64,000 bases of DNA from Antedon mediterranea (taxonomy: Eukaryota > Echinodermata > Crinoidea > Comatulida > Antedonidae): contig NC_092675.1 of NCBI RefSeq assembly GCF_964355755.1, positions 2,948,312-3,012,311 on the forward strand, given 5' to 3'. The notes below the pieces were generated by a model. The model had not been told where the DNA came from, made no database searches, and saw nothing but the letters and a program-made list of their open reading frames with translations. Positions within the stretch are counted from its first letter, which is position 1, and every line of letters starts with the position of its first letter. Positions 1,452-52,500 of the stretch are shown piece by piece. Position numbers and translations under genes: made by a program.

Positions 1452-25697
<24,246 letters not shown>

Positions 25698-26608: not shown

Positions 26609-28291
26609 TCAAATACAAAAGTTATTCTCTTTATTAAACCCATCATAAACTACTCTACATGTCGCTGTTTCTTTAAGATCATCTTCTTGAAAGTTCAATA
26701 TCGTTAGAATGTTTTTATCACTTGATAAACTTGTGACAAATGAGAGAATTGTAAGTGGAAGATCCCCGTCGATGTCACATTTAAATGGTATGTTGTCACC
26801 GAAATCCACCAGTCCATTGGGAATGATATTAATATTGGTATCCTAGGAAAAGGTATAATTTGGCATGATTCAACAGATTCCAATGCAGGACTGGTGATGT
26901 CACATCTGAATTTCACGATCTTCCTCCTGCAGACTAGACGAATCCATTGACATTGAATCAACTTTTAATGTCATTTTCTTGATTCTGTCATTCCCAAACC
27001 ACGAAATAGTTGGTCTGGGATCTCCGCCTGGAGCAGTACATAGAATCGATACGTCATTCCCTATGACAGGAAAATCAATTCCACTTGGGTATGTTACACT
27101 ACATGATGGAGAATTTGGCCTTGTGATAATATCAAGGAAGGCACTGGCAAGAAAAACATAATCAGTTCTAACTCCACGAATTGCGGAAAAACCACATTTA
27201 TACTCGCCTTCGTCTGCATAGCTAACATTGTAAATAGTTAAGTTTAACCAACCGTTGTTATCAAGAAAAACATTCTGTGTTAAAACCTCGCTTGATTCAG
27301 TATGAAACCATATAACCTGTTCGTTAAGAAGTTTTGAAAACTGGCATCGAAACGTAACATCTTTACCAACCAATTCAGTGATGTCGTCTGGTTCTTGAAT
27401 AACATACAAGGCGGTTTCAAAATCTACAGTAGATGTGAACTCTTTATCAAAACCATCATAAACTACTCTACATGTCACTGTTTCTTTAAGATCATCTTCT
27501 TGAAAGTTTAATATTGTTAGAAGGTTTTTAGAATTTAGAGTGAAGCGATCACTTGCTAAACTTGTGACAAATGAGAGAATTGTAAATGGAAGATCCCCGT
27601 CGATGTCACATTTAAATGGTATGTTGTCACCGAAATCCACCAGTCCATTGGGAATGACATTAATATTTGGTATCCTAGGAAAATGTATAATTTGGCATGA
27701 TTCAACAGATTCTAATACAGGACTGGTGATGTCACATCTGAATGTCACTCCACGATCTTCCTCCTGCAGACTAGACAAACTCATTTTCACTGTATCAACT
27801 CTTGATGTCCTAGACATTAATACGTCATTCCTAAACCACGAAATAGTTGGTGTGGGATCTCCGCCTGGAGCAGAACATAGAATCGATGCAGGAAAGTCAA
27901 TTCCACTTGTATATGTTGCATTACATGATGGAGAATTTGGCCTTGTGACAATATCAAGGAAGGCACTGGCAAGAAAAACATAATCAGTTCTATCTCCACA
28001 GACGAATTGTGGAAAATCTACATATATACTCGCCTTCGTCTGCATAGTCAACATTGTAAATAGTCAGAGTTGACCAGTCGTTGTTATCAAGAAAAACATT
28101 CTGTGTTAACACCTTTTTTGCTTCAGTATGAAATCATATAACCTGTTCGTTAAGAAGTTCTGAGAACTGGCATCGAAACGTAACATCTTCACCAACCAAT
28201 TCAGTGATGTCGTCTGGTTCTTGATAACATACAAGGCAGTTATGAAGCCAGGTAAACAACAAAAACACAAGTACAGCACTAGATTCGACAT
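26609..28291 (-). pseudogene. Two fused, decayed Ig-receptor copies
   Basis: Two paralogues of the neighbouring Ig receptors joined head to tail. The first copy (28291 to about 27413) keeps the start MSNLVLYLCFCCLPGFITA. It is then broken by a 1-nt deletion near 28223, a TGA replacing the Ig1 Trp near 28133 and a 4-nt insertion near 27997. Its Ig2 and Ig3 stay open. It lacks the membrane span: Ig3 (STVDFET) runs straight into ALYVIQEPDDITELV of the second copy. The second copy has intact Ig1, but a 4-nt deletion near 26917, a 1-nt deletion near 26836 and an in-frame loss near 26720 break Ig2/Ig3. It stops at 26609 without a membrane span. Breaks are judged against the intact copy at 29928-30983. 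A spliced transcript avoiding them seems unlikely but cannot be excluded. Confidence 0.85.
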
Positions 28292-28420
28292 CGCAAATGT
28301 ATGCTACATTTAATACTAAATAATCATGTTTTTGATCTTATCACAAGAATGACACTAGATTCGACATCGCAAATTTATGCTACATTACTAAATAATCGTA
28401 TGTACTTATCACAAGAATGA
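28276..28420 (-). repeat. Tandem duplication of Ig leader/5' flank
   Basis: A ~70-bp segment containing CACTAGATTCGACATCGCAA, TACTAAATAATC and TCACAAGAATGA occurs twice (28277-28353, 28354-28420). The outer copy restarts ATGTCGAATCTAGTG but soon meets a stop, so it is a duplicated, non-functional start. Confidence 0.75.
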
Positions 28421-29172
28421 GTAAGCCGCGATTTTTGCATTAGAGTGTAACAGAGAGTGATGCCCGCCCTCATAAGGACGGATGTATTGATTTAATAGAT
28501 ATTATACATGTACATTAAATATAATTATGATAATATATTTTGCAATTATAAAACATTTTATAAACATATCTAATAAAAAAACTAGTGTACATTCACTTCT
28601 ATAGACAATTATTTACCACCATGCTATATTAGTTCACAAAGAAAGGCCGAACAGCAACAACAAAAACCATCAAGCGTTACTCAGCACGGCCTATTCTTTG
28701 CCATTGCCGTGTACTAATCTACGCCCGGTAAATTAAGTAATGTTTTTATGATATAAACTAGTATAAATACATGTTATTAATAGAATTAATATAAATTTTT
28801 TTTACCAGAAACAAGTTAAATATAAAAATATTATTAAACTATCCTTCGTGAAAACGCGTAAACAGCAACACGGCCGGTGTAGCGCCCGGTTAATTGTTGA
28901 TGAAGCGAACTGTTTATTCGGCAGTTTTTTACAAAATAAATTGCATGAAACTAACAATTAAATATTCAAAAAACATTTAACATGATGTTGGCATGTAGTT
29001 GATAACATTTTTTATCATGAAAACATTACCGGTGGTGGTCTAGGCTTAGATTAGTGAGACCGTCACACAAATTTAACAAAAAGTTATATACATCCTGACT
29101 TATGGCGGCGCCCTACCGAATGGACAATATTAATGTTACAGGGAAAACTGCGGATTACTCATTCTTGTGATA
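28407..29172. mobile_element. Inverted-repeat element between Ig copies
   Basis: TIRs of about 30 bp: TATCACAAGAATGAGTAAGC at the left, complement ACTCATTCTTGTGATA at the right, both flanked by TACT (28403-28406, 29173-29176). The interior is GC-richer than its surroundings and has no long open frame. It sits just upstream of the decayed Ig pair. Confidence 0.62.
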
Positions 29173-29269
29173 TACTATATATTCTTTCATCTTATTAAAA
29201 TCTCGTCAGTGCAGCAGCCGCGCCCATGTTTCAAACTGCGTCACACAACAAAATAATGACAAAAAAACA

Positions 29270-29455
29270 AACAATAGGCCAAGTCGTTGTTATTATGTAA
29301 AATATTTTTGTTATTAAAGATCGCATCAATACATATGGTATAATAATAATCATTATATATTATAATATCATTATGGTATAATAGCAATAGAAAAACGTAG
29401 GCCAAGTCGTTACGCAAAATATTTTTATTATTGAGAATCGGATCAATACATCATA
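29270..29455 (+). repeat. ~125-bp imperfect duplication
   Basis: TAGGCCAAGTCGTT ... AAAATATTTTT.TTATT and GATC.CATCAATACAT occur near 29275 and 29398. A diverged third copy is near 33685-33745, upstream of Ig copy A, so it belongs to the Ig duplication unit. Confidence 0.65.
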
Positions 29456-29927
29456 TTATCATTTTGTGCTACGGAAGCCATCTTGCAGAGATGACAATCA
29501 ACTTGACAAGCCAACAAGCCAACAACATGCAGCAGAATTTTCAGGGGATTTCCGGACACCATGTTAATTTAAAAATCCTGAACGGAGGGTCGTACAATAT
29601 TCTTAAACGATTAGTTTAACTTCCATCACTGCATGATTTGTTAAAAATTGAATAATTGTTTGATCTCCTTTTTTTTTAAATCAGAAAATGTAATTGTTTT
29701 TTGTAAAATAGTATTATTATTACTGCTTTTGGACACAATAACAAAATAAAGATCTTCTATCATAAATCAGAACTATTAAAAAACAAAAATTAACTTCCAC
29801 AGAGTCCAGTCCAGTGGCCTCACATGTTTTCACTAACTTAGTTCATTATATTATATGTAACATATAAAATGGTATTTTAAGGTTCTAGCAAAACTAAATT
29901 CTAAATCAAATTTACCGGTATCTAATT

Positions 29928-30983
29928 TTAAGTTGATCTATTTTGATTTTTACGATAATACCATATCAACGCCGTAGTTACTAATATTACAATGATAACA
30001 GCTAAAACACCCAGAACTATAGCTAAGGTAGGTGTGGTTTCTGTATTTGGACTGACGTCATTATCTCTGTCGTCATTTAAATCTGGTAAGATGGTTTCAA
30101 AATCTACAGTAGATGTGAACTCTTTATCAAACCCATCATAAACTACTCTACATGTCAATGTTTCTTTAAGATCATCTTCTTGAAAGTTTAATATCGTTAG
30201 AATGTTTTTAGAATTTACAGTGAACCGACCACTTGCTAAACTTGTGACAAATGATAGAATTGTAAGTGGAAGATCCCCGTCGATATCACATTTAAATGGT
30301 ATGTTGTTATCGAAATCCACCAGTCCATTGGGAACGATATTAATATTTGGTATCCTAGGAAAAGGTATGATTTGGCATGATTCGACAGATTCCAATGCAG
30401 GACTAGTGATGTCACATTTGAATGTCACTCCACGATCTTCCTCCTGCAGACTAGACAAAACCATTGAAACTGAATCAACTCTTGATGTCATAGACTCGAA
30501 TACGTCATTCTTAAACCACGAAATAGTTGGTCTGGGATCTCCGCCTGGAGCAAAACATAGAATCGATACGTCGTTCCCTACGACAGGAAAGTCAATTCCA
30601 CTTGGGTATGTTACACTACATGATGGAGAATTTGGCCTTGTGACAATATCAAGGAAGGCACTGGCAAGAAAAACATAATTATTTCCGTCTCCTCGTGCTG
30701 TCATATATCCACATTTATACTCGCCTTCGTCCGCGTAGCTAACATTATAAATAGTCAGATTTAACCAGTCGTTGGTATCAAGAAAAACATTCTCTGTTAA
30801 CACCTTGTTTGCTTCGGTATGAAACCATATAACCTGTTCGTTAAGAAGTCCTGAGAACTGGCATCCAAACGTAACATCTTCACCAACCAATTCAGTGATG
30901 TTTTCTGGTTCTTGAATAACAGACAAGGCGGTTATGAAGCCAGGCAAGCAACAAAAATACAAGTACAGCACCAGATTCGACAT
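29928..30983 (-). CDS. Intronless Ig-domain membrane receptor, copy B
   Basis: A 351-residue type I membrane protein in one uninterrupted frame. The start at 30983 is preferred over an upstream ATG at 31046 because MSNLVLYLYFCCLPGFITA is a good signal peptide shared with both neighbours. Three Ig domains follow. Ig1 has FGCQFSG, the Trp in QVIWF and YADEGEYKC (V/I-set like). Ig2 has ILCFAPGGDPRPTISWF and FKCDITS. Ig3 has FKCDIDG and LTCRVVY but no core Trp. A membrane span (AIVLGVLAVIIVILVTTALI) and a very short basic tail YYRKNQNRST follow. It has no known signalling motif, so it may pair with another chain or act as decoy/adhesion protein. I do not recognise a named orthologue; the role as immune or cell-recognition receptor is inference. 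Confidence 0.82.
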   Translation of the reverse strand: MSNLVLYLYFCCLPGFITALSVIQEPENITELVGEDVTFGCQFSGLLNEQVIWFHTEANKVLTENVFLDTNDWLNLTIYNVSYADEGEYKCGYMTARGDGNNYVFLASAFLDIVTRPNSPSCSVTYPSGIDFPVVGNDVSILCFAPGGDPRPTISWFKNDVFESMTSRVDSVSMVLSSLQEEDRGVTFKCDITSPALESVESCQIIPFPRIPNINIVPNGLVDFDNNIPFKCDIDGDLPLTILSFVTSLASGRFTVNSKNILTILNFQEDDLKETLTCRVVYDGFDKEFTSTVDFETILPDLNDDRDNDVSPNTETTPTLAIVLGVLAVIIVILVTTALIWYYRKNQNRST

Positions 30984-32335
30984 CGCAAATACTATGCAAC
31001 TGAACGGTGCTTCAGATATGTGTGCCTTTGTTGAATGAAAAGTCACCTTATAGGTACAATGGTGTATTAACTAGCTTACTGTCAAGGTTGTTTCTGTTTT
31101 AGTACAGAGTTATTAATCAAACAAAAATAATACAGTAGTACGAATGACGTCACACAAAGCAATACTATCAATGACAATACATATTACAGTATATATATAT
31201 ATAGCAAACCTTAAACTGTGGTAATCCTTTTTCACACTAAAAAAAAACAGGAAACCGTAGTTACAGAAACGTGTTAAGGAAATGACTTTGCTACGGCCTA
31301 CAATCGTCAACATTCCTTTGGGATAAATTATACCATAACATGATATTTCCTATGACGATAAACGAATTCCTTTACTATGCTGGTGCGCATTTATTATGTC
31401 AATTAGGATTTGGTTCAATAGGTCTAGGATATACTAAACATATTCCGGGCATAAAATAAACATAAGTCTACTGTAACCGTAAATTAGTGGTAGGGAAAGT
31501 CAAAAGAGGCGATACTGAAAAATGTTTAACGTCACTATAGACATGATACTGCTCGTGTATCTGATAGAATTTGTATATCTATTCATTGTAAAGAGTGAAT
31601 CAACCTTATGCACGTTTATTGAAGAGTTAATAGCTCTGTATACACCATCACACTTTGTGACACAAAAATGTGATGTGCCCATAATAGACATGATAATGTC
31701 ATATCACTACCAAATTTGGGCACATCATACTTTTTTTGTCAAACTATAGTTTGATAGTGTAGACAGAGCTGATTGTAGGGTCCTAGGTCTACTTGTAGGC
31801 CTACAAGTTACAAAATCGATGGAAGATAACTTCAATAATGGATTTATTAGCTTTTCCAAGTCAGTTTAATCTCACAAGCTGTGGCATTTGTGATACAATA
31901 CAACATAAAATGCCAGCAATTAAGTTGTTAATTATTATAAAAGAAAACGCTTATTGTACAATGTCACTGCCAATTTGTGAATAATCACTAGATGAGGTAT
32001 TAAGTTTCGGAAAATTAATAGTCTATGAAGTCTGAAAAACTTCAGCAGTTATTTAATAGATTATTAATTCAAAAATTTACAAAAATGTGTACAACACGTA
32101 CGAGATTAAAATACACCATGAATCATGTAGTGTAGCATGGTATAAAACTTCAATGAAATTAAACATTAAAAGCAGAAAAATAGGAAATAAAATTGTAAAC
32201 AAATTTACTCCCTCCAAAAAACAACCCCCATTAAATGTTACTGCTGTCTCCCGGTATATCTTAACTAACTATTGACAGTCGTGTATGAAATAAAATAAAC
32301 AAATTCAAAACTCAAGCAACAAAAATATATGTTAA
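30984..32335. other. Spacer between Ig copies B and A
   Basis: Holds R1 copy 7 and AT-rich DNA; a possible minus-strand AATAAA for copy A is at about 31838-31845. No further exon seen. Confidence 0.6.
31633..31771 (+). mobile_element. R1 MITE (copy 7)
   Basis: AGCTCTGTATACACCATCAC to TTTGATAGTGTAGACAGAGC with a single internal ATCACTACCAAATTTGGG unit. Lies between Ig receptor copies A and B. Confidence 0.82.
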
Positions 32336-33454
32336 TTACGGAGGAGGAATTGCTGGAAGTTGGTTTGTTTTCGGTAAAGCAGTGAATCCTATGTCGTAGT
32401 TACCAGTTCGTGTCCTAAAGCACATGGCCTTAAAATGCCAGAGCAACGCTGTAGTTACTAAGATTAAAATGACTATGATTACAGCTAAAACAGAAAGAAC
32501 TATTATTAAACTGGATTTGTCGTCTGTATTTTGACCGATGTCACTTAAATATGGTAAAATTTCTTCAAAATCTACAGTAGATGTGAATTCTTTAGCAAAC
32601 CCATCATAAACTACTCTACATGTCACTGTTTCTTTAAGATCATCTTCTTGAAAATTTGATATTTTTAGAACATTTCTTTCAGAGTTAAGAGTGACTCGAT
32701 CACTTGCAATGCTTGTAAGAAATGAGAGAATAGTTAAGGGAAGATCTCCGTCAAAGTTACATTGGAACGGTATGTTGCTACCGAAATCCACCTGTCCATT
32801 ATAAGTTATATTGATTATTGGTATCTCAGGAAAAGGTATAATTTGGCATGATTCGACAGATCCCAATGCAGGACTGGTGATGTCACATCTGAATGCCACT
32901 CCACGATCTTCTTCCTGCAGACTAGACAAAACAACTGATAATGATGAATTCATTTCTGATGCCATAGACTTGACTTCGTCATTCCTAAACCACGAAATAG
33001 TTGGATTGGGATCTCCGCCTGGAGCAGAACATATAATCGATACATTGTTCCCTATGACAGGAAAGTCAATTCCACTTGGGTATGTTGCACTACATGATGG
33101 AGAATTTGGCCTTGTGATAATATCAAGAAAGGCGCTGACAGGAAAATAATATTCCGTTCTATCTCCACGAATTGTGGTATACCCACATTTATACTCGCCT
33201 TCGTCTGCATAGCCAACATTATGAATAGTCAAGTTTAACCAGCCGTTCATATCAACATTCGGTGTTAACACCGCGTTTGATTCAGTATGAAACCATATAA
33301 CCTGTTCTTCAACGAGTCCTGAGAACTGGCATCGAAACGTAACATCTTCATCAACCAATTCAGTGATGTTGTCTGGTGCTTGACTAACATGCAAGAAGGC
33401 GGTTATGAAGCCAGGCAAACAACAAAAACACAAGTACAGCACTAGATTCGACAT
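32336..33454 (-). CDS. Intronless Ig-domain membrane receptor, copy A
   Basis: A 372-residue type I membrane protein from a single exon. Signal peptide is 1-19. Ig1 is about 20-115 (Cys42-Cys90, Trp54, ADEGEYKC), Ig2 about 118-208 (Cys142-Cys190, Trp155), Ig3 about 210-300 (Cys232-Cys279, no core Trp). The membrane span is about 314-339. The ~33-residue tail contains GNYDIGF and ends in PAIPPP; that Tyr and the Pro run are the only possible signalling features and fit no strict ITAM or ITIM. Several N-glycosylation sequons (NIT, NLT, NVS, NSS) are in the ectodomain. It is clearly paralogous to the copies at 29928-30983 and 26609-28291, but more diverged in Ig1. Function not recognised; a recognition receptor is plausible. 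Confidence 0.84.
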   Translation of the reverse strand: MSNLVLYLCFCCLPGFITAFLHVSQAPDNITELVDEDVTFRCQFSGLVEEQVIWFHTESNAVLTPNVDMNGWLNLTIHNVGYADEGEYKCGYTTIRGDRTEYYFPVSAFLDIITRPNSPSCSATYPSGIDFPVIGNNVSIICSAPGGDPNPTISWFRNDEVKSMASEMNSSLSVVLSSLQEEDRGVAFRCDITSPALGSVESCQIIPFPEIPIINITYNGQVDFGSNIPFQCNFDGDLPLTILSFLTSIASDRVTLNSERNVLKISNFQEDDLKETVTCRVVYDGFAKEFTSTVDFEEILPYLSDIGQNTDDKSSLIIVLSVLAVIIVILILVTTALLWHFKAMCFRTRTGNYDIGFTALPKTNQLPAIPPP

Positions 33455-34656: not shown

Positions 34657-35012
34657 CCTCAAAGGATTCCTACTGTATTTTAGACATTAAGACCATTCTT
34701 TATGAACAATTAACAAAAAACGCTGCTTCTAAATAATTAAATTGTCAGTTTAGATGTATCGGTATGGGTTGCATTGTAGTCATAAATCATATATATTTTC
34801 TCCTTTAAGTACTAACCCGTAATTATACCATTTAAGCAAACATGACGGCAAAAGAATTACAATTGTTTATAAGCCACACCTGGAAGAGTTGATTAAATAG
34901 TATATAAATATATTTTTCTTCTTTTACACCATAAAAATATACTAAATCAATATAATTATTTATGTACGAAAGTACTATAGCCTACTGTACAAACATATCA
35001 CATCGTTAATAC

Positions 35013-36333
35013 CAGGGAAGTTCACTCTTCCCCATGGAAGTTCACTCTTCCCCATGGAAGTTCACTTTTCCCCATGGAAATCCACTCTTCCCCATGGAAG
35101 TTCACTCTTCCCCATGGAAATTTACACTTCCCTGGGGAAGTTCACTCTTCTCCATAAAAGTCCACTCTTTCTCATGGAAGTCCACTCTTCCCCGTGGAAA
35201 TTTATTCTTCCCCATAGAACTCCACTCTTTCCCATGGAAGTTCATTTTTCCCCATGGAAGTTCACTCTTCCCCGTGGAAGTTCACTCTTCTTCATGGAAG
35301 TCCACTCTTCCCCGTGGAAGTTTATTCTTCCCCATAGAACTCCACTCTTTCCCATGGAAGTTCATTCTTCTCCATGGAAGTTTACTCTTCCCAATAGAAG
35401 TTCACTCTTCCCCGTGGAAGTTCACTCTTCCCCGTAGAAGTTCACTCCTCTTCATGGAAGTCCACTCTTCCCCATGGAAGTCCACTCTTCCCCAGGGAGG
35501 TCCACTCTTCCCCGTGGAAGTTCATTCTTCCCGAGGAAGTCCACTCTTCCCCATGGAAGTTCAGGCTTCCCCATGGAAGTTTAGGCTTCCCCATGGAAAT
35601 TCACTCTTCCCCATAAAAGTCCACTCTTTCTCATGGAAGTCCACTCTTCCCCATAGAAGTTCATTCTTCCCCGTTGAAGTTCATTCTTCCCCATAGAAGT
35701 TCACTCTTCCCCATGGAAGTTCACTCTTCTCCATGGAAGTTTATTCTTTCCCATGGAAGTTCACTCTTCCCCAGAGAAGTTCACTCTTCTCCATGGAAGT
35801 TTATTCTTTCCCATGGAAGTTCACTCTTCCCCAGAGAAGTTCACTCTTCCCCAGGGAAGTCCACTCTTCCCCGTGGAAGTTCACTCTTCCCCGTGGAAGT
35901 TTATTCTTTCCCATGGAGGTTCACTCTTCCCTAGAGAAGTTCACTCTTCCCCAGGGAAGTCCACTCTTCCCTGTGGAAGTTTATTCTTCCCCATAGAACT
36001 CCACTCTTTTCCATGGAAGTTCATTCTTCCCCATGGAAGTTCACTCTTCTTCATGGAAGTCCACTCTTCCCTATGGAAGTTCACTCTTCCCCAGGGAGGT
36101 CCACTCTTCCCTGTGGAAGTTCATTCTTCCCCACGGAAGTCCACTCTTCCCCAATGGAAGTTTATTCTTCCCCATAGAAGTTTATTCTTCCCCATAGAAG
36201 TTCACTCTTCCCCATGGAAGTTCACTCTTCCCCATGGAAGTTCATTCTTTCCCATAGAAGTCCACTCTTCCCCATGGAAGTTCACTTTTCCCCATGGAAG
36301 TTCACTCTTTCCCATGGAAGTTCACTTTTCCAT
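35013..36333 (+). repeat. 20-bp minisatellite, about 66 units
   Basis: Consensus TTCACTCTTCCCCATGGAAG, period exactly 20, with frequent variants (CATAGAAG, CGTGGAAG, CCAGGGAAG). Because 20 is not a multiple of 3, all three plus frames stay open for long stretches; these frames are artefacts, not a gene. Some variants recur in blocks, e.g. near 35750-35960, suggesting segmental amplification of several units at once. Confidence 0.95.
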
Positions 36334-37562: not shown

Positions 37563-38178
37563 AAGTATCATGTACACATATAGAACTCCTATAGATCTGG
37601 TTGGTGTTCATACATGTTGTATCAAAGTAACGTAAACTAATACATAGCATAGTAAGGTAATTAAGTATCATGTACACATATGGAACTCCTATAGATCTGG
37701 TTGGTGTTCATACATGTTGTATCAAAGTAACGTAAACTAATACATAGCATAGTAGTAAAGGTAATTAAGTATCATGTACACATATGGAACTCCTATAGAT
37801 CTGGTTGGTGTTCATACATGTTGTATCAAAGTAACGTAAACTAATACATAGCATAGTAGTAAAGGTAATTAAGTATCATGTACACATATGGAACTCCTAT
37901 AGATCTGGTTGGTGTTCATACATGTTGTATCAAAGTAACGTAAACTAATACATAGCATAGTAGTAAAGGTAATTAAGTATCATGTACACATATGGAACTC
38001 CTATAGATCTGGTTGGTGTTCATACATGTTGTATCAAAGTAACGTAAACTAATACATAGCATAGTAAGGTAATTAAGTATCATGTACACATATGGAACTC
38101 CTATAGATCTGGTTGGTGTTCATACATGTTGTATCAAAGTAACGTAAACTAATACATAACATAGTAGTAAAGGTAATT
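37563..38178 (+). repeat. Six near-identical 100/104-bp tandem units
   Basis: Units start at AAGTATCATGTACACATA at 37563, 37663, 37767, 37871, 37975 and 38075. Lengths alternate between 100 and 104 because of AGTAAGG versus AGTAGTAAAGG near the unit end. Units are otherwise almost identical, so the array is young or kept uniform. It lies about 0.9 kb past the convertase 3' end. Confidence 0.95.
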
Positions 38179-39068: not shown

Positions 39069-40519
39069 TTACATAGAATAATTTGCATCTTCGAAAACTC
39101 TTTGCTGCAAAATATCATTTTCTCCTAATTTTTGATACCTAACATCCTTAAACGCAGTTTCATTTCTTCTGAGTTTGAAAAATATACAAAATGCTAACAA
39201 AACGCATATAACTATCAGGATTGAAACTACGCCGACAACTTTTACGTATGCGTTGTTTTGTAGAGGAAGATATAAAAGAACGCAAACTGTATCACGCTTG
39301 GTGTAATCTTTACTGCATTCAATGCACTCTGTCTGCATCCCGCCGTAACACGTAGAGCAAGACTCATGACACTCTTTGCACCATGTGTCCTTCAGATAGA
39401 AGCCATTTTGACACTTACTAGACCCGTCGCGTCTACTCGTGCATCCATTAACACCAGCACCTAAACACGAGGAACACTCTTTGTGACAAGGTAAACAAGA
39501 TTCTTTGAATCCAGTCTCCCAAGGCTCTTTAATTGCTGCTCTATATTTGCCTTCTGGACATGGTTTGGTTGTTGGACGTTCTTGTAAACAATCAGTTTCT
39601 TCTCCACCGTAACAGGTGAAACATCGTTGGTGGCAGTGTTGACAGATTCCTAGACCATGATCAAGATATGTTCCATCAGGGCAGTTGTCAATTGTAGTTG
39701 ATTTCATTAAAATACAATCAAATGGGTTTGGCCCGGTGCATGATGTACAATCTGAATGGCATTGTTTACAAATGTTGCTGGCAATTTCCAAAAAGAATCC
39801 TTGAGAACAGGCAGCGACTTCTGGAGTGGTTGCTGCTGCTTCATCTAAACAACTATCATAGTTGTTACATTTTAAACAACCTTCAAGACAAGTCCTGCAT
39901 TGCCAAGTTGACACATCCAAGTAGCTACCAGTTACCACTTCACCATTTATAACTGGTCTACATTCTGGAACATCTTTTACCTCTATGCATCCTTCTGTAC
40001 CTTCTACCATACATGTGTGACATGATGGATGGCATAAATTACAGGTTCCTTCCCGTTCTCTGTAGTAACCTTCAGTACAGTCATAATCTGTCTTGTTTGG
40101 TGGTGCGTCAGTCATTTTTCTGTTTGTAGTTGCTATTTGTTCTTTAGTGCTAGGATTTGGCTTGGTGGTTAATTTCTGAGTTGTATACTTTTTCTCAGTG
40201 GTAGATATTGGTTTAATAGTTGTTCTTTCCACATCTGTAGTTTTTTCGGTGGTTGGGTTAGATTGATTGGTCCTTAGTTGACTACTTGGTTTTTCGCTTG
40301 TTATACTCTCGGTGAAAGTTACTTTAGTGGTTGACTGTGATGGTTTAGTGGTTGGTTTTAATAGTTCAGTGGTTGGTTTTACTGGTTCAGTGGTTGGTTT
40401 TACTGGTTCTGTGGTTGGTTCATATGGTTTAGTGGTTTTCTGTGCTGCAATAGGTTCGCTAAGTGGTTCATTTACTGTTTCTGTGCCGTATAATTTTAAC
40501 GTCCAGGAGGTCAAGAAAC
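39069..40519 (-). CDS. Convertase: linker, Cys-rich repeats, TM, tail
   Basis: Large last exon. After the end of the P domain ([13 protein letters not shown]) comes a ~110-residue Thr/Pro/Lys-rich linker with near-repeats [12 protein letters not shown], probably O-glycosylated. About six furin-type repeats follow, each with CxxCHxxCxxC and a closing Cys, then a partial seventh. Next is a membrane span ([20 protein letters not shown]), a basic stop-transfer FKLRRN, and a ~27-residue tail [14 protein letters not shown]...NYSM. YQKL fits the YxxPhi sorting signal used by furin and TGN38. TAA stop at 39069-39071. The mucin-like linker between P domain and repeats is not usual in vertebrate PC5. 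Confidence 0.95.
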
Positions 40520-43500
40520 CTGAAATAAAAAGAAATATTTGATTTATATTGAAAAGAAAATCAAAAGATTTTCTACAAATTAAGGTATCACTTACAAATG
40601 ATTTCTGATTGTAGTATTAATCAATAATGATTTCTATTTTAATAAATAAATTTAATAATTTTAATAATACAAAACTAGTACTGTTAAATAATCCAGGGTT
40701 ATTTAAATGTAGCAGAAAAAAGTTTTGAATGCCTACCGGTGTTATATGAGCTTCCTTTGTTTTCTATCTGCAATGTCCATTTTCCTTGAGGTTGTTCTCC
40801 CCATGTATGAGTGCTCATAAACTCCCAGTTAGAAAAGCCAGTTCCTGATGCATCATGTGGTCTCTTAGGCAGTAGCATCGCAGACGTACCCATTGGAGAC
40901 GTCAGATGGATAACCAGGTCTCCGCGCCGAGGGAACGTTATAGATAACACTGCATGCACTTTCTCTAAGTAATTCAATTTCTCAGAGGTTCCTGCACAAC
41001 CATCGCTTATATGGTCTAACAATAGTTTTCCCTTGATTTGTCTAATAATATAAATATAAAATAAGTTGAAGACAAAGGTCAAAGCTTCAATTTCTGGAAT
41101 GTAATAATTTGAGTGCAAACCATTTATTTTATTAATATTCATATTTTATTAATAATACAAACAGTACAATAGAGGAATATTAAGACAAGACATAAGACAA
41201 GACATAAAATAAGACAAACTAAGACCTAGGAAAGCTAGCACTCATAGACTACCAACACCACTGTTGGTTTGTGTGATTTATTGTGGGCATACAGGGACAT
41301 TGGGAAGTGTTTCTTCACTCGAATCTTTGACAGTTCTGGGAGACAACATACATACTGTATTGTATAATAAAAGCACTGATATTCTTACTAGGTCTACAGT
41401 GTAATACAGTATCAAACTAACAACATTATTCAATGAGGTAAATACAGTAAGTTCATCTCATTCAGCACATTGCTATACCCACAGTATTACTAATCAAATG
41501 GAAATTATACAGTAGGCCTGCTTCAGGACAGAACACCACAAATATTTTATACCAAGTACATTAACACTTACAACCTTGGTACAATGGTAGTGCTCAAAAT
41601 TACCCACAGTATGACTAATCAAATGGAAATTATACAGTAGGCCTGGTTTAGAGCAGAATACCGTTGCACTGGCCCAAATATTTTATACTAAAAGTACATT
41701 AACACTTACAACATTGGTAGTGCTCAAAATTACATGAGTGTTAATATGATAAGCATATGAGATTGCTCACATTTACATTTAAGCATAAAAACTACATATA
41801 TTTTACCAATAGTTTATCTGATAATATAAGAGTAACACTTACTTGCGTTGTGAGACAACAGCCTGACTACATGTTTTCATAGGAGGTACAGTTGGCCACC
41901 TTAATGCTAGATCTACCATAGCTGAAGCATCCATCAATCCAAATCCATATGAATGACTTACTGAAAACCGAATGAAGAATATACTTTGAGAATAAAGAAC
42001 TATATTTCTCCTTCCTTCATTCATTCATTCATTTATTTTATCAAAATCACCAAAAAAAAAATAAAAAGGTTCATGAATAAAACAGTATTAAAAACAACAT
42101 ATAAAACAGTGATGAAAATATTTTAAAACATCCACTCAATGCAAGTTGATGTACTATTTGGCATATATATGATATCATATGATAGTGCAGTGCTGTTCTG
42201 TGCGAGTGAGTGGTCGAGCGGTTAAGACACCGCAATTATGTAGCCATAACATTGGCAAGGGTTTAAGGCTTACTCGCTCATGGTTCTGGTGGTAAAACAA
42301 GTCTTCTTGGATAAGGACTAGAAACCAGTGTATACATCTAGCTCATGTGCACTTTAAAGAACCTAGTACATCTTTCATTACCCTGGTGTACTAGTACACA
42401 CACAGCTTCTGATAATAACTGGGCCCTCTGTGAGACCCAGTATAAATAAATTCAAATTCAAATAGGTGTAACCTCCACTTTTGAGAAGAGAATTATGGAA
42501 AGTCATGGTGGCCAACCAATAATGCTTAGTTTCCACTTTGATGCAACACAAGGACTAGAAAGCAACAGTATACAAATGCATAGGATTAAAATTCCTTCAT
42601 TGACTAATACCTTTAAATCCAGCTCCATTTGTTATCCAGTCAGATTCATCAAGATGTTCCGGCCTGGCAGTATTTACCACAATGTGTTGCAGGTCACGCC
42701 ATGTCAGATTAGGGCTGAAAAAAATAAAATAAATGGTGATATTAAATGATAGCATGGATGGGCAGTACCATAGACTGAGAAACAATGAAGCATGACATAC
42801 ATTTGTTTAATGCCGACTACAATGATTGGTTTATACATGCTAAATAATCTTTGGTACTGCATTATACAATTATAAAAAAACTTAAATTTAACAAGTATTA
42901 AACTCTGTCTATACTATCAAACTCTATGTGACAACAAAATGTGATGCACCCATATATGGACAGGATGTCACTACCATATTTGATAGTGTAGACAGAGCAG
43001 AACATTCATGCAATCTAGAAGTAGGCGACAACTTACTTGGCTTCTAATGCCAAAGCACAGATAGCAGCAGCAAGTGGAGCAGAGGCTGATGTCCCACTGT
43101 GTTGCTTCGTACATCCCTTTCGAAGATCAACAGTTACCTGTAAAATATATCAAGTAAAAATAAGTTATTATGGTTTCAATGTTGTATATTAGTTGTTTAT
43201 TTAAAGATGTATTGTCCCCCTGAACAAATAATTTTTGGTTGAATATGCCATTTTAATGTCAAATAATAGTTATCCACTTTGACCAAAAAAGGGATCGAAA
43301 AAAAATTATTTACCTGAAAAAACATGGTCAAATTGGCTGCCAGCCAATGGATTTTTGGTTGAATTTTACCATTTATTAAGTGAAAATTTTATAAGTGAAA
43401 ACATGATTTTATTAGTTTTTTTTCTATTGAAGTGATTAACTTGATTAAAACTACAAAATAACATATTCAAAGTCTGATTTAATTAATCTTCATTTTTCAT

Positions 43501-46500
43501 GTTTTTGGGAGACAATACATCTTTAAGGGACTATGTCAAAATCAATTTATTACAGTAACTTTAAGCAGTTAGTAACTTATTTAAAAAATATAATTAAATT
43601 TATATTAAACAAATATTTAGTCGAAGATTTACCACTTGTTTTTCTCTAGTGCTACCACTACTATACGTTGTCGCCAGCGTTGATGCACATCTCTCGGAAT
43701 ACCATGGAACTTTTCCGTTCTCAGACACGCTGCTGACCGATAATGTATAGATGGTGTTGGTATACCCATCGCAGTTACAACTATCTTCCATCCTCCCTCC
43801 GTTTCCAGATGCCCATACAAATATCGAACCTAGACCACCTCGTCCCTGAAAACAAATAGTATGGTATTTAAATAATCAATCTAAAAGGCAAACCTAGATT
43901 GATACAGATCTATACAACTCATACTACTGTATTTTTGACATATTGTAAAACATAAAATAGTTTACAATCAATTAACACTCAACTTGTGGATGGGTTGATC
44001 AATGATGTTTTTCTTGATAACAAATGTACGAGATTTCCAGGAACGGGTGCGGGGAAAGCGTTATGTTTATAACTTTTCAACTCCACAACCAAAACCCTAC
44101 CACATTTTTTTATATTAAATTCAAGATGAATGTGGTGGATTAATTGAATAGAAGTTTACTTTACTATTTAAAACAGTAGATGTGTTTAAAAAAAAGGTTT
44201 TATTTGTTGTATGGTTGTACGACTGTTTCATTAAATTTTACTCCACCTTATGGAATAGAAACCCTATTTAATTGTTTGCATGGCAACATCAATGTTGATA
44301 TAAAGTTTGCGGTACACATATATACTTTGATCGTCCACAGGAGTGAAAATGAGGAAGTCCGGAGGATGATGAAAAGTATTTTGATCAAAACGTCGCAAAG
44401 TTTAACAGTTTATTTTCAGATCTACGCACATGGTTACCGCAAACTTTATATTAAAAACCATAATCATCTACTATTTATATACCACTAGAATAGCATAAAA
44501 AACATGTAGCATTTCAATTCAAAATAAAATATTTTTAAAAATACATAAATCATAAGATTAAACTCCATAACCTATACAGACATATGGTAATACTTTATAC
44601 CACCATATGCTGGATAACGTGCTGTTAAAATGTTTATATCCTGACCGAAAGCAAAATACCACACATATCCCTTCAGGAAACCAAGAAATGTGGTTAGCAT
44701 ATGTTTAAAAACAGATCATATTTCAAATTCATATAATAAATGTATTAATATTACATTATATTATGGTAAGTACGAACTCCCACAAAAATAAAAATATTCA
44801 TAATCATATACAGTGTGGGTAGGTGTCAAAATGTATTAAAGGTAATCTGAGGTTCTTTAATGTCGGTACATTGTTGAAGCTGGATGGAATGCCATCAAAT
44901 AAGCTTTAGGTGGAAGACTTGTTATCCCATGGAGGTATCATGACTGTCCCCACCTACAGTAGCACACCACAATTACATTGTTATTTGATCTTTTATGTGT
45001 AAAGAAACTTTGGTTATATATTGTTTTAAGGTTTCAATGTCCAAAAGCTGTTTTGATCAATATGTTTTGATTGTTCTCAAGAGTGAAAGTGCAGGTAGTT
45101 CAGGAAATGGGATTATAACTAAAGTTGGGTGGGATTATTTGTGAAACTAGCTACAGACCAAGGATGATCAAAGCTATTCATAAACACTTTGAGAAGCTTT
45201 AACAGTTCTTTTTTACATGGTGTATTGCAAACTTTACATACAAACACATTATTTTTGTTTTTTTTGCAGTTTCTTCAGTTCTTCTATGTCATTTTACAAG
45301 ATTCTTTGCCAATTTATTCAATGCTTGAATTTGGATTAATTATAATTGTATGTTACGCATCTGTGCACGGTTTGGATTTCTTGAATTGGCTTTACATCAG
45401 TCACACAAGCTTTCACCTCTAGTCATGCTTTGTTACTCTTGCAGGTGTAGTGTCAGATTTGTATAGGACATTTTCTGAATCGATTTGGATTTAATTTCGA
45501 AACTTTCGTGACACGGCATCTGTATGTACAGTAAGTAAAATTCCTTCATTCATCACATTCACAGTAGGGGACTTCAAACATAATAACTTATTTCTTTCCA
45601 AACATTCTTCATGGTAGAGCATTTACAAAAAACACCTATACTGTATGGCACCAATACATATATATATAAAATGAACAAAAAAAAAAGTACCGGTAGTAAT
45701 AATATATTTATAATAAATTGCATTATGTGAAATTAATATAAAAAAAAATATAATAATGTAATATTAAACCATAGTTAGTAACACCAATGATTCTTATAGT
45801 TAGTTTTCAATAATTATACTTATATCAATATATGTTATAAACGTTCAATACCAACATTTTATTGGTTGGTAAATAAGAAAGTAAAGATGACATATTTGTT
45901 CATCTTTACAATTTCTAAAAAAGGATTTTGAAACAATATAAAAGAAAAAATGTAATGTATGAAAAGTTCCCCTACAAACGCAAACTAAGATAATACTATT
46001 CTAAAAGGTCATGTTACATATATGTATATTTTTTTTTAAACTAAAAGGAGAAAAAAATAAAATAAAAAAAAAATCCCCTAAAAACCAAAAATGCAATCAT
46101 GCTACCCAGCAGGGTTTCATTTGCAGTATAATCGATACTTACTGGAAGTTATTATAAACAAAATGCAATTCTTCCAAAGATAAAAAACAACATTGTTACT
46201 ACATAAACAGAATGTTCTAAATACGAAAGCATAGTGACATCATAATTCTTGAATGATGCTGTATGCAGTATTTCCTTGTGGTTATTATGACATCATAGAT
46301 CCTGTTGTCTGTCATATCATATGACACATTAAAAATATTTTACTTTTTACAAACAAAAAAAGCACAACAGAAACAAGTTTGTTTTTCAATAAATTTCAAT
46401 AGCTTTTTAACATCGTTTTTTGCCATTTTACCAGTAATATTTATAAAGCACCCATTGCTATGATAAGCTGATAATCAGCAGCGCTTCACATACTGCCATA

Positions 46501-49500
46501 ACATTTGGTAAAAAGTCTTTGAATGTTTTTAAACTGATAATAGTCATTCAAATGTTTAATGTAACTTGGCACATTTTTCCGGATTCTTGGTCCACCAAAG
46601 GAAAACAAGCGGTCAGGAAATGCCTTTCCTTTGTGGAATGGCTAACATCACTAATACTAGAACATGTACTGCAAGCTACATCCCATAGAAAGTAAATCTT
46701 TTAAGTAACTTGGTGCAGAACATTTAAAGACCCATTCTCTACAATTTTTGACGTTTTGCAAAAATAAATAGATAATTAGATTAAATAAATAATAATTAAA
46801 TCTAAAAAAGTAGGAAATGGGACTTTAAGTGAACACCAAACAAGGCTTGTTATTTTACACAAACATTTCAAAATAAATTTACCTTCAAGGCTCCATCTTT
46901 AAATGCCTGACGCGCTAATTTCCCGGGGCCATCAACCGTTTTGCCATCATCATCCGGACCCCAGCTAGCACTGTAGATGTCTACGTGTTGAGGTTGATGT
47001 GCCAGTGAACGGGCTTCCACTGCATCTGTCACATCACCATCAAGCATCCGTACACCTATAAAAAAACAGGTTCACAACTATTATCTATAAAAACTACCTA
47101 TCCTTGCCATATGATTGGTTAATATATATCACATGCCATCCATTATTTAGTTCTCATTGCATTGTAAAGGTTCTAATTATTGGTTCTATTGTAGGCCTAT
47201 TGACTGTTGCATACCAATTTGTAGTGTGTGCCATCTACAACTACTCTACTTTGTGGCATAAATCGGAGAAATGCGTTTTTGAATGGCAGTTTATTTGTAT
47301 ACAGTATCACATTTTATAGGTTAAGAGTAATCAGTAGAGATGTTTGATATCATGATAGTGGTATTACCTTTTACAGAACAATACAAATATCAAAGTATCA
47401 TTCTATACACAAGTGTTTTTAAACAACTGTGTATAACTAACAGTACCAAAGATGCAGTCATTACCAAAAGGCTATTTATTCAAAATGACATCTTGATCAT
47501 TAAAACACAGATCTGTGACGTCAGTCTAAGTCTAAACTGTCATCGTTAAAGACAAGATCATTAAGTGTGCAAATTTTGCATTAGAGCAAAACCATTACAT
47601 GAAATCTTTAAGGTTATTTTAAAGTAATCTTTAAGGAGGAAATTGAAATATGTTAAAGCTCCAGGCATAAAAGATTTGAAGTAATAACAATGTAAATATG
47701 CTCTATATGTAACCTGTTCTTGAGGAAAATATATCCTTAGGTTGAAATTGAAATAAAAATAAATAAATGTCAAAATTCAACTGATTAAAGAATGCATGTA
47801 AAAGATGAGAGTTCATCTTGTACAGTATGGTTTAATAATGAAAATAACTATTACAGTCAACAACCTTCTCATTTACAAACTGCTTTCAGAGCAATGAACC
47901 CGTAAACTTTATAAAACAATTTCTCAATCTTTTCCAGTTCTTGGTTTACAACTATCAACTCAGGTACTATATTCAGCACAAAGACCTCTTTTGTAATCGC
48001 AAATAGAAATCAGAAGTCAACGAACATACAAATGAACAGTGTACTACAAACAACAAACTTTCCTTCCTGCGATTAGTACATACTTTTTAAACAAGGTAAT
48101 ACAGCCAACACTCTCAATACCTGTAGGCTAGCCTAATGTGTCTGGCTTTCCAGAAATTTTAGTAATCGGAATGTGTTTTTAATTGTTAAACATATTATGG
48201 AATCTTTTGAACCTCTGGTTCTTACTTAGAGAACCTGGTGTTTAGGAGTCACATCAAATGGAAACAAGTATTTAAAAGAAAGAGTACAGAACAGAAAGAT
48301 TTTGATGGCGTTTTGATTCCATCCACTTTAAGAATAAATTAATATAAGTATACTATAGGCAACTATGGTTGGAATTATGAAAACCTTCAGTTTTTTTAAT
48401 GATGTTGATATGATGTCCCAATACTAATTTCTTGTTTATAAATAAGTTCAGTGTTACCTCCAATATTAGCGTTGTAAGCGACGCCAACAGAACATACATT
48501 GTTATTGGCTTCAGCAGCTACTTCTCCAGCACACCGAGTGCCATGTCTACAAGAAATTATGAAATTCATGAATGAATAAGCAGCATTCAAAGAATTATGT
48601 CAAATATGTATATAATTGATTATATCATTTTACAAGTTGATTGAGTGCAAACTCCGTAAAATGATAGGTCATCAAATATTATCATTTATCATTTCTTCTG
48701 CTCATCTTTGAAATGATCTGCCATCAAAGCTATTATTGGCAACATCAATCAACAATGTTTTCAAAAGTTTTAACATCATCTTAGTTTTTCACTCAAGCTC
48801 TTGTGAATACTGTTCTGGCGAGGTCTCATATGGGAGATGCAGATACAGATACATTTATTGTCCAATAAAAATGAAAATGACAGTGCTTATAAAAAGGGGG
48901 AAAAAAGAACTATTTAACAAATCTTTTGTTATAATGCCTTATCCCAGCTGGGTAGAATGAGTACTTGTAACGTTCACCGTCCTCATCCTACCACTTCTGA
49001 TGATAACGTAGCCGATAATGAGGATGATTGGTGTCTTCCAATGTGGCATGGAACACATCGGCAAGACGTTCGCTTTAAAGTGCTGGAGAACGGAGTGATG
49101 TAAATGGTTCCTCTGCTTCTTATTCATTTTTCTTAGGATATTTAATGTGTGTTTTTTTTTGTGTGTAAAGCGCTTACTTTACATTAGGAGCTATATAACG
49201 CTACCATATTATTATTATTATTACAGTATTTATATGTTATTTATATACTGACCTGTTTTCATTGCGGATGTCATAACGTGGTTGTGGGTCGTTGTCATGA
49301 TCATTTACATCATAACTTGCTTTACTATCCTGAAATATACAAATGTATTCAATATTAAAAATCAAAGTGTGTCTAAAAAAATAATAGGCAGCTTTCAAAT
49401 TGCAATGACCAAGGTCAGGTCAATCATTGTGTCATCAGTCATAAACTTGCCTTTCTATCCTGAAATATACTGTACAAATGTATTTAATATTAAAAATCAA

Positions 49501-52500
49501 AGGTAAGTATCTGAAAAGAATATTTAAGCTCTGTATACACTATCAAACTTTATGAAATAAAAAAAGTGATGTACCCATACATGATGATGTCATATCACTA
49601 CTATATTTGGGCATATCACTACCATATTTAGGCATATCACTACCATATTTGGGCATATTATTACCATATTTGGGCACATCACACTTTTTTTTTGGTCAAA
49701 CTATAGTTTGATAGTGTAGACAGAGCTTAATAGAGAGCTTTCAATTTGCAACAACCAAGGATCGTCAACCAAGGTCAGGTCAACCAAGGTCAGGTCAACC
49801 AAGGTCAGGTCAATCAAGGAGTCAATGCCTACAAAATAAACATAATATCATAATTCAAGAATGTTTTATCAAATGATGAAAAATATCATAGTTGAGACGT
49901 AAAATAATAAATATTTTGATTAGAAACATTACCAAACAATAGGATTATTAATCTGCGTTTTGACCTTTAAATGTCAAGAAACAATAAACAATAAAATATG
50001 TTGACACATACATGTATGTTTCTGTAGGAGTGTAGGTACAATAAAGCATGGTTCCCAATTGGACCCAGCTTTACACAGAATCTAATTGGATCAATGATAA
50101 ACAAAAATACCGGAATACTGTATGCACACAAAACAAAATTCAATGTGTAGTTTTACTCTTTAAAAAAAAGATTTATTTTCCAATTATGAAAATCCAAATG
50201 TCAAAACACAAAATAGACTGCCAAACTCAGTAGGGGATTTTTGTATTGTGAACATGTACAAAGGTAACCAGGACATATTGTACACTGTATTTAGTTTAAC
50301 AAAAATAGAAAAATAGAAATAACCTTTGAATATTATTATTCACTTACAGTAGTATTGGTATTGATCACAAATATACATTTCATTTCCTTTTTATTAATTT
50401 TCGTTCATTTTTTCTTTTCCATCTTAATTTATCTTAAAGGGCAATTTATATAGACGAGCGGAAACGGTAAACAGAAAAGTCAGTATAGCTTGTCCCACAT
50501 AGAATCTGTATTTATCTTAAGCGGAAACCACCCAGCAGGTCTGCGGCGTTGTGTGCAAATGGTCGTAAGGAGTAACATACAGCGGATTCTATATTTTTAT
50601 TAATGTAAATTATCCTTAAGGCAATAAATTGATGGATGTTTGCAAAGAATTCAAAATTACCGATACCTGCAAACATCAAAGGGCAGTGAAATGATAGATA
50701 ATGATCCTAACTTGTTTTAAAACAAAACTAATTGCCATGATTATTTAAATCTAATTATCGGAGATAAAAAGTTGTTGTTTGTCCGCCATCAATAAAAGCA
50801 TCTTTCACTTGCTACATCCATTGGTTTATATATTAATGTTGTGTTAATCTTTTTTGCTTTGAGTTAAATCTAGTACGTGACATTTAGACTTTCTTTTCAC
50901 TACCAATTTGAACCGAGAAGAAGTCTGCTGCATCTGAAAAGCCTTTAATGGTTTGCCAAGGTAAAATTAGATAGTAATTCATGACGAAAATAACTAAATG
51001 AGAAGGTTTTTCTTGTTGCCAATTGACAAGCAATGGTTAATTTCTAAATGATCAAGAGATGACAGTAGTTAAATGTTGTGTTGTTTCTACCATAGAGCTA
51101 TATTACAGTAAAACTAAACATCCTATATTTGATCTACAACTATAGTACAGTACATCATTAGTAATTATAACAATGTGAAACTATTAATTTATTATAGTAG
51201 TTATCACTTTGACCAAAAATTGTGTGTGTCTTAAATCTTACACTTTTACAGTCAATGTTGTCTTTGTGAAAATCATTTTTTTCCCTTAGAAGGGAAAAAC
51301 TTGATTCAAATTACCAAATGGCCTATTTAAATTGTATTGATTATATTTGGGGACAATACTTATTTAATAAAAAATATAATAAAACAAATTCCAATGCACA
51401 CAAAACGAAAGATCTTTATAACTATTAGCAATTGCTATAAAATCTAATACTACAGTACCTGATATACTGTTTTACATTTATAATTAATCTATTATTTAAA
51501 AAAAAATGATAATACCAAAAGATGATATAATATGTGACTGTGTATTCCACATTTAGATACATCATTCGGTATACAGTATTGTTGTGAAACAAGTCCTTTT
51601 ATTTCAACAATATTTTACGAGGGTGGTCCATCCAGCAGAAGCTAATCATTAGAGACCCTCACAGAAATACATCATTACAAGACATAAACATGTAACAATA
51701 AAAATTAAAATAAATATAATTTATAAAGATAAAATAAAGCACAAAAAAATTAGAATCAAAAATTAAATTAAATTGGCCATCTCAGGAGAAAAGATTGGAA
51801 AAAGGAAGCAACTAAACAAGAAGATGGTTCTTGAGCAGACATCCGAAGGAAGAGTAAATGGTTTTTGCCAGTTTAGACTAGACAGAAAATAATATGGTCA
51901 TAATTTACTGATAACATACTGCATGTGTCCAGTGATAAAGGAAAAGTTATCATGAAAATCTCCTTACTGCAATATCTAAAGTAGATGGTGGTTGTGTAAA
52001 CAGACCATATGGAGGTTTAGAACACTAAGTGCAGTATAAACAGTGTTAAAATAGATGCAAGTATTGAAATGGTGCATGTGGGAATAAAAAATGCATTTTG
52101 CCCGATTATTAGACGGCAATAAATGAAGCATAATTGTAGCTGAAATAAGTTCACAAAATCAGATGTTAAATATTCTAAACAAATCACATACTGTAGATGA
52201 CTTTGTAAAAATCTGAAATTGAAGTCAAGTATAAAGAAGTGGAAACCTTTAATTACGAACGGATTGTTTTAAAATGAAGTCAACACACGCAATGCAAATT
52301 TTCTACCTAAATGTACTGTAAAAACAATTTGATCAAGAACTCTATTAAATACCATAAAGCTACATTATGGAATTCAATCCATGTAGATATTAAAACGGCA
52401 TCTACAACTAAATTTAAATTAGTATTTTTTTGTTTGTTTGTTTGTTTCTTTATTTCCATTCACAACAAAATAAAACCATTAAAATACATAAATATTCATT

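Follow-up and report, generated by a model that had tools for sequence, protein, structure and literature searches.

A stretch of 64,000 nucleotides from the crinoid Antedon mediterranea (RefSeq assembly GCF_964355755.1, contig NC_092675.1, positions 2,948,312 to 3,012,311 of the forward strand; hereafter the window) carries at positions 26,609 to 33,454 a tandem cluster of genes for type I membrane proteins with three immunoglobulin (Ig) domains. The question raised by this locus is what such a cluster represents and what its proteins do. A first-pass annotation, made from the letters alone, had described two intact and two decayed copies, and this was confirmed: copies A and B are uninterrupted frames, and copies C and D are frameshifted. 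Taken together with the rest of the genome, the cluster is somewhat more probably than otherwise an outpost, small and in part decayed, of a very large family of germline recognition receptors in which three Ig domains are encoded by a single frame. The importance of the observation lies outside the window, in that genome-wide family.

Copy B (32336-33454, minus strand) is a single frame of 372 amino acids (aa) with a leader, Ig1-3, a transmembrane segment (TM) and a tail of about 33-38 residues. Copy A (29928-30983, minus strand) is likewise a single frame, of 351 aa, with the same parts and a tail of about 10 residues. The two proteins are 73% identical (BLASTP, 350 columns), and their Ig domains score above the Pfam cut-off of 30 bits (Ig_3, 66.8 and 75.2 bits), which places them in the immunoglobulin superfamily (IgSF). 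Hydropathy showed one TM near each C-terminus, followed by 11 residues in A and 38 in B, the count in B starting after a 19-residue TM window; the lengths of 10 and about 33 given by the annotation were thus fair. Its statement that the leaders are almost identical also held, with one replacement in 18 aligned codons and one codon present in B only. The C-terminus is RST in A and PPP in B. By reading of the sequence, neither TM contains a charged residue, and a paired receptor with a charged TM residue was ruled out for both copies. A chance origin of the frames was discarded as well, since two frames of more than 350 codons have Ig homology and are met again across the genome. The claim that each copy is one exon stands for A and B in the sense of one open frame; an intron in the 5′ untranslated region is possible, GTAAAA just after the TM of copy A could be a splice donor, and we infer from the frames that the transcripts lack introns.

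The searched genome comprises 354 Mb in 18 contigs, about eleven of which seem, by estimate, to hold nearly all bases. A search of this genome with copy B gave 77 matches, of which 6 fall in the window. Of the other 71, 67 are in frames without stops and at least 350 aa long, and one of these 67 (contig C2, 2907 aa) probably represents a giant Ig exon belonging to a different gene. When this search was merged by hand with searches using members L019, L030, L025, L018 and L054, the census, which counts A and B, reached at least 219 distinct frames that are free of stops and 350 aa or longer. This number is a lower bound, since only the best candidates of each search were scored; weak matches may include other Ig genes, and outside the loci read members are known by frame length only. 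The frames are concentrated on C3 at 18.57-18.91 Mb (52 frames), C7 at 3.28-3.77 Mb (48), C3 at 11.73-11.90 Mb (22), C11 at 15.81-16.12 Mb (20) and C11 at 5.48-5.60 Mb (11), with the remainder in smaller groups. The first-pass annotation, which had called for a count of intronless paralogues, therefore underestimated the size of the family, and its proposal of tandem spread with birth-and-death evolution finds much stronger evidence in these arrays and in broken copies across the genome than in the window. An echinoderm or hemichordate lineage, also expected, was supported. A homeodomain search and 12 homeodomains pointed to one cluster on C2, which we take to be Hox1 to Hox9/10 plus three Hox11/13 genes, an ambulacrarian set; a search with COX1 gave no mitochondrial match.

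Forty-five members were read at sequence level (25 loci, 18 array frames, L053 and L054), together with 20 further ectodomains. Apart from L011, which lacks a TM, L022, which has a stop, and L026, which has no clear start, the 45 read as a leader, Ig domains, a TM and a tail. The three-Ig make-up was aligned for 22 loci with A and B, for the C3 array and for the C7 ectodomains. In the first of these alignments, from which L011, L022 and L026 had been left out beforehand, the Ig2 cysteines C101, C122, C170 and C183 (numbering of the copy-B fragment) are invariant in all 24 ectodomains, as are the canonical cysteines of Ig3. C101 and C183 form an extra pair in Ig2, found in every row including A and B. 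In the structure model of copy B (three Ig domains, mean pLDDT 89.4, pTM 0.71) they lie in strands 99-103 and 180-184, so that an additional Ig2 disulfide between strands A and G is likely on the model. NCBIfam gave no match, and the 50 rows listed from a viral fold library were all low-identity Ig-type matches. A tree built from 34 ectodomains places A and B, on a long branch, with L005, L007 and L009 (C11, 16.10-16.12 Mb; support 98/96); this placement near the C11 members indicates that the window cluster is an offshoot on another chromosome.

The tails suggest a signalling function for part of the family. Motifs were counted in 27 tails (25 other members plus A and B) and compared with 500 shuffles. 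YAxP occurs 13 times against 0.7 in shuffled tails (in 5 of 27 tails), and motifs like the immunoreceptor tyrosine-based inhibitory motif (ITIM) 13 times against 5.9 (in 10 of 27). YxxP (31 against 11.5) and PxxP (41 against 21.3) are enriched as well.

Signs of recombination were found in several places. L011 (G000:C11:16105738-16109436) combines the leader of L007 with three Ig domains that nearly match those of L009, and looks recombinant; in the mosaic pair L055/L061, Ig1 is near-identical and Ig2-3 have diverged. In the C3 array the tails share 93% DNA identity (proportions of nonsynonymous and synonymous differences pN 0.033 and pS 0.187; pN/pS 0.18), compared with 70-79% for the Ig domains (pN/pS 0.41, 0.52 and 0.42), and the low pS of the tails points to gene conversion on top of constraint. 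Between A and B, synonymous differences are 5.5/65 in Ig2 against 22.5/59 in Ig3 (entered rounded, Fisher 0.0002), a contrast that fits conversion.

Selection was examined as w (dN/dS, nonsynonymous over synonymous rates; intervals in brackets), and since mosaics occur, recombination weakens all w and pN/pS figures. For the C7 array, 21 genes were sampled (L054 and its 20 best full-length matches), giving nine disjoint pairs with pS < 0.2, three of them nearly identical (pS 0.011-0.021), and three unpaired genes. Here Ig1 is the fastest domain (w 1.33 (0.89-2.16), against 0.84 (0.59-1.30) in Ig2 and 0.92 (0.61-1.44) in Ig3), though not significantly above 1; the bootstrap share in which Ig1 is not above Ig3 is 0.121, and not above Ig2, 0.064. 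Over all C7 pairs, pN/pS is 1.03, 0.83 and 0.72 for Ig1, Ig2 and Ig3. Within Ig1, w reaches 1.96 (0.80-8.48) in C-C'' and 2.37 (0.98-6.69) in F-G. The Ig1 replacements between A and B also gather in the C'-C'' and F-G stretches (13 of 27 codons, compared with 11 of 65 elsewhere, Fisher 0.0036), stretches that were chosen post hoc. Diversifying selection is thus suggested, short of proof, for the C7 array and not for the C3 array.

These results can be assembled into the following picture of the outpost and its family. The ancestor would most likely have been an IgSF gene that lost all its introns at once by retrotransposition. A retrocopy origin had been proposed by the annotation; it is plausible and has a precedent, since an Ig gene without introns, kirrelL, has been described from echinoderms; according to Khor and Ettensohn (PMC8903837) it lacks introns in all echinoderms examined, and they suggest retrotransposition. 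The family may then have grown by tandem duplication, gene conversion, moves between chromosomes and steady loss of copies, leaving the arrays, mosaics and broken copies that are observed. To judge from the positions of the replacements, Ig1 would bind the surface of another cell or of a microbe through its C'-C''/F-G side. Long-tailed members would signal through phosphotyrosine motifs, as their enrichment suggests, and the short-tailed A and B would more likely be adhesion partners, ligands or decoys of the signalling members. A recognition receptor, as first proposed, is therefore a plausible label, and an immune or self/non-self role is in our view the single most likely setting, over cell fusion or neural wiring.

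Several observations weigh against this picture. The annotation had expected Ig1 to exceed Ig2 and Ig3 in dN/dS, and in the window pair this failed: Ig1 is not the fastest domain, with w of 0.63 (0.31-1.28) against 1.25 (0.56-3.98) for Ig2 and 0.28 (0.14-0.55) for Ig3. Elsewhere the expectation agrees with the C7 array without reaching significance, and the two hypervariable stretches there (Ig1hv and FG) were picked post hoc, after a sliding-window look. It disagrees with the C3 array, where seven disjoint pairs from 18 genes gave w of 0.36, 0.47 and 0.32 for Ig1, Ig2 and Ig3 (tail 0.16), so that the Ig domains (0.32-0.47) are under ordinary constraint. In none of the three comparisons (window pair, C7 and C3 arrays) is w significantly above 1. 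As regards signalling, the immunoreceptor tyrosine-based activation motif (2 against 0.8) and YxxM (3 against 2.5) are not enriched in the 27 tails, and the tyrosine contexts of A and B include neither YAxP nor an ITIM-like motif, so that neither copy has the hallmark of inhibitory receptors of the ITIM type. As regards origin, no intron-bearing parent was identified, and no search for poly-A tracts or target-site duplications was made. Finally, the picture as a whole is drawn from genome sequence.

A bolder version is possible, although we hold it tentatively and at less than even confidence: an undescribed germline repertoire of three-Ig receptors without introns, about two hundred or more in number, whose variable tips are mixed by conversion and whose signalling tails are homogenised, may have arisen from one retrocopied Kirrel/nephrin-type adhesion gene and may serve as a main Ig-based system of self/non-self or microbe recognition of an ambulacrarian. 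No comparable repertoire was reported among the papers listed in our literature searches, some of whose listings covered a small share of the fitting papers (12 of 1,159 and 20 of 9,281) and where subscription journals are mostly absent. A recent review (PMC13428168) names expansions of Toll-like, NOD-like and scavenger receptors as the main source of recognition diversity in echinoderms. An Ig repertoire of such size in the germline, with one frame per gene, would mean an additional, Ig-based arm close to the deuterostome base. Genes with one exon also lend themselves to cloning, expression and population sequencing, which makes ligand, tissue and polymorphism directly testable.

The alternative that survives best, though we consider it rather unlikely, is that the family is an expansion of the intronless echinoderm kirrelL, or of a relative, serving adhesion, fusion or wiring and not defence. 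The absence of introns from kirrelL in the source cited above speaks for it, as do the matches to proteins of solved structure. SYG-2 is the best such match for L019 (5.5e-18, with Rst seventh) and for L029 (3.3e-13, with SYG-1, Kirrel1 and Rst within the first 11 rows). With two of the three members compared matching SYG-2 best, the annotation's remark that no named family was recognised is only partly right; for copy B, titin comes first and SYG-2 second. The kinship is not specific, since DIP-theta is practically tied for L029 (4.3e-13), and for the family profile CEA, Robo2, Dscam, titin, FCRL5 and contactin-2 all rank above SYG-2, which is seventh. A SYG-2 fragment gave at least 74 matches in the genome; 64 of these fall in frames of about 360-1213 aa without stops, most of them at census places, but this search scored 113 of 271 candidates, and unbroken frames outscore split exons in it. 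The domain number differs as well: Kirrel has five Ig domains, against three here.

Both decayed copies lie on the minus strand beside the intact ones. Copy C (27425-28291, border approximate) comprises a leader and Ig1-3; its Ig1 is broken by the loss of 1 base, a stop (TGG to TGA) and 4 inserted bases, and stalk, TM and tail are missing. Copy D (26609-27424, borders approximate) comprises Ig1-3, has lost 5 bases in Ig2 and 1 base where Ig2 meets Ig3, and has no leader, TM or tail. Ig3 of C runs straight into Ig1 of D within one open frame of 387 aa, with the border near 27410-27425, and an extra leader-start fragment (28342-28386, minus strand, 45 nt) is 89% identical to that of C. Outside the coding region the likeness of A, B and C ends within about 10-30 bases, with no convincing homology further out; the best flank match is 31 bases between the upstream regions of B and C (E 3.8e-6), away from the gene start. 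The three copies are thus alike mainly within the coding region, which we read as the probable effect of gene conversion, with duplication of the coding part alone as the alternative.

Such decay could also mean that these are surface proteins drifting after duplication, amplified by genome dynamics and weak and unspecific in function, with the window cluster in the course of being lost. Two of the four window copies are decayed, many rows of the C7 array have stops or short frames, and no w lies above 1 with confidence. Still, A and B are constrained over their three Ig domains (w 0.53, 0.37-0.78), the C3 tails are strongly conserved and the 219 census frames are free of stops, so that drift seems an improbable account. 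Least credible of all, and barely worth retaining, is the idea that a few long transcription units use the frames as large alternative exons: in one C3 array (L049-L052, G000:C3:11873400-11904500; 18 intact head-to-tail frames in 30 kb) only 186-335 bases separate each stop from the next ATG and AATAAA or ATTAAA occurs in 3 of the 17 gaps and is missing from 14, but each of the 18 frames has its own TM and stop-ended tail, whereas the variable exons of protocadherins share constant exons for their tails.

The neighbouring genes had been described as heavily interrupted. This is so on the right, where exons of a proprotein convertase gene (39072-53794, minus strand) comprise S8 pieces, a P-domain and a Cys-rich frame with a TM; matches to Peptidase_S8 (twice) and P_proprotein mark exons at 40702-41145, 43603-43875 and 53498-53794, in separate frames. 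The Cys-rich frame gave a sub-threshold match only, and on our reading it would belong to the same gene, which may be called furin-like. On the left, interruption is only implied, by one partial protein-kinase exon (23210-23458, minus strand; Pkinase, positions 9-79 of a 263-position model), presumably DAPK-like. Around the cluster, minisatellites occupy 23757-24185 and 24790-25397 (period 24 in both), 35012-36331 (period 20) and 37563-38000 (period 104 bases, extending to the end of the scanned stretch). The spacer between A and B (30984-32335) contains a dispersed repeat, about 140-150 bases long, with matches at many other sites in the window.

Other Ig genes were met in the same genome. 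A piece of C8 (L076) has separate short frames of 91-127 aa, several of which read as single Ig domains, the usual layout, and across G000:C8:4.70-5.78 Mb, the region to which L076 belongs, many Ig_3 matches in short frames look like a separate, large array of ordinary multi-exon Ig genes. L075 (G000:C5:20706000-20711000, minus strand) represents a second type of very long single frame, of 1377 aa, 928 of which were read before the locus stops; a part rich in Cys and helical in appearance precedes two Ig domains. On C1, C6, C9 and C10, too, Ig matches fall in frames about 1340-1377 aa long.

The comparison with known systems can be made by fold and by gene organisation. Among the families in the VIA list, the highest VIA-align Z scores for the copy-B model were obtained with Necl-4 (15.2; rmsd 6.8, 254 residues aligned), SIRP-gamma (14.1; 7.7, 262), nectin-3 (13.9; 7.7, 258) and DIP-alpha (13.1; 7.1, 252), all at 16-21% identity; domains D1-D2 of Rst gave a Z of 13.1 with rmsd 2.5 over 178 residues. 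Nectin/Necl, SIRP and DIP proteins resemble A and B in having three Ig domains in line, a likeness of fold only. Nectins and Necls end in a PDZ-binding motif, which is absent from A (RST) and B (PPP). The nephrin/Kirrel group (SYG-2, SYG-1, Rst, Neph1) has five or more Ig domains and introns, whereas A and B have three in a single frame; the likeness to this group does not rest on a family-specific signature, and other IgSF proteins score as well or better for copy B and the family profile. The vertebrate KIR, LILR and SIRP clusters are also birth-and-death families of Ig receptors in which long tails with tyrosine motifs stand beside short tails, but they are multi-exon and vertebrate, and the TM of A and B has no charged residue. 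Hydractinia Alr offers clustered Ig-type type I receptors in an invertebrate, with introns and in another phylum. Echinoderm KirrelL, likened here by description, shares an intron-free coding region, an Ig-domain transmembrane protein and an ambulacrarian host; in PMC8903837 (citing Ettensohn and Dey 2017) it is treated as a single gene with a role in the fusion of skeletogenic cells, while the family described here numbers at least about two hundred frames, most of which lie in arrays.

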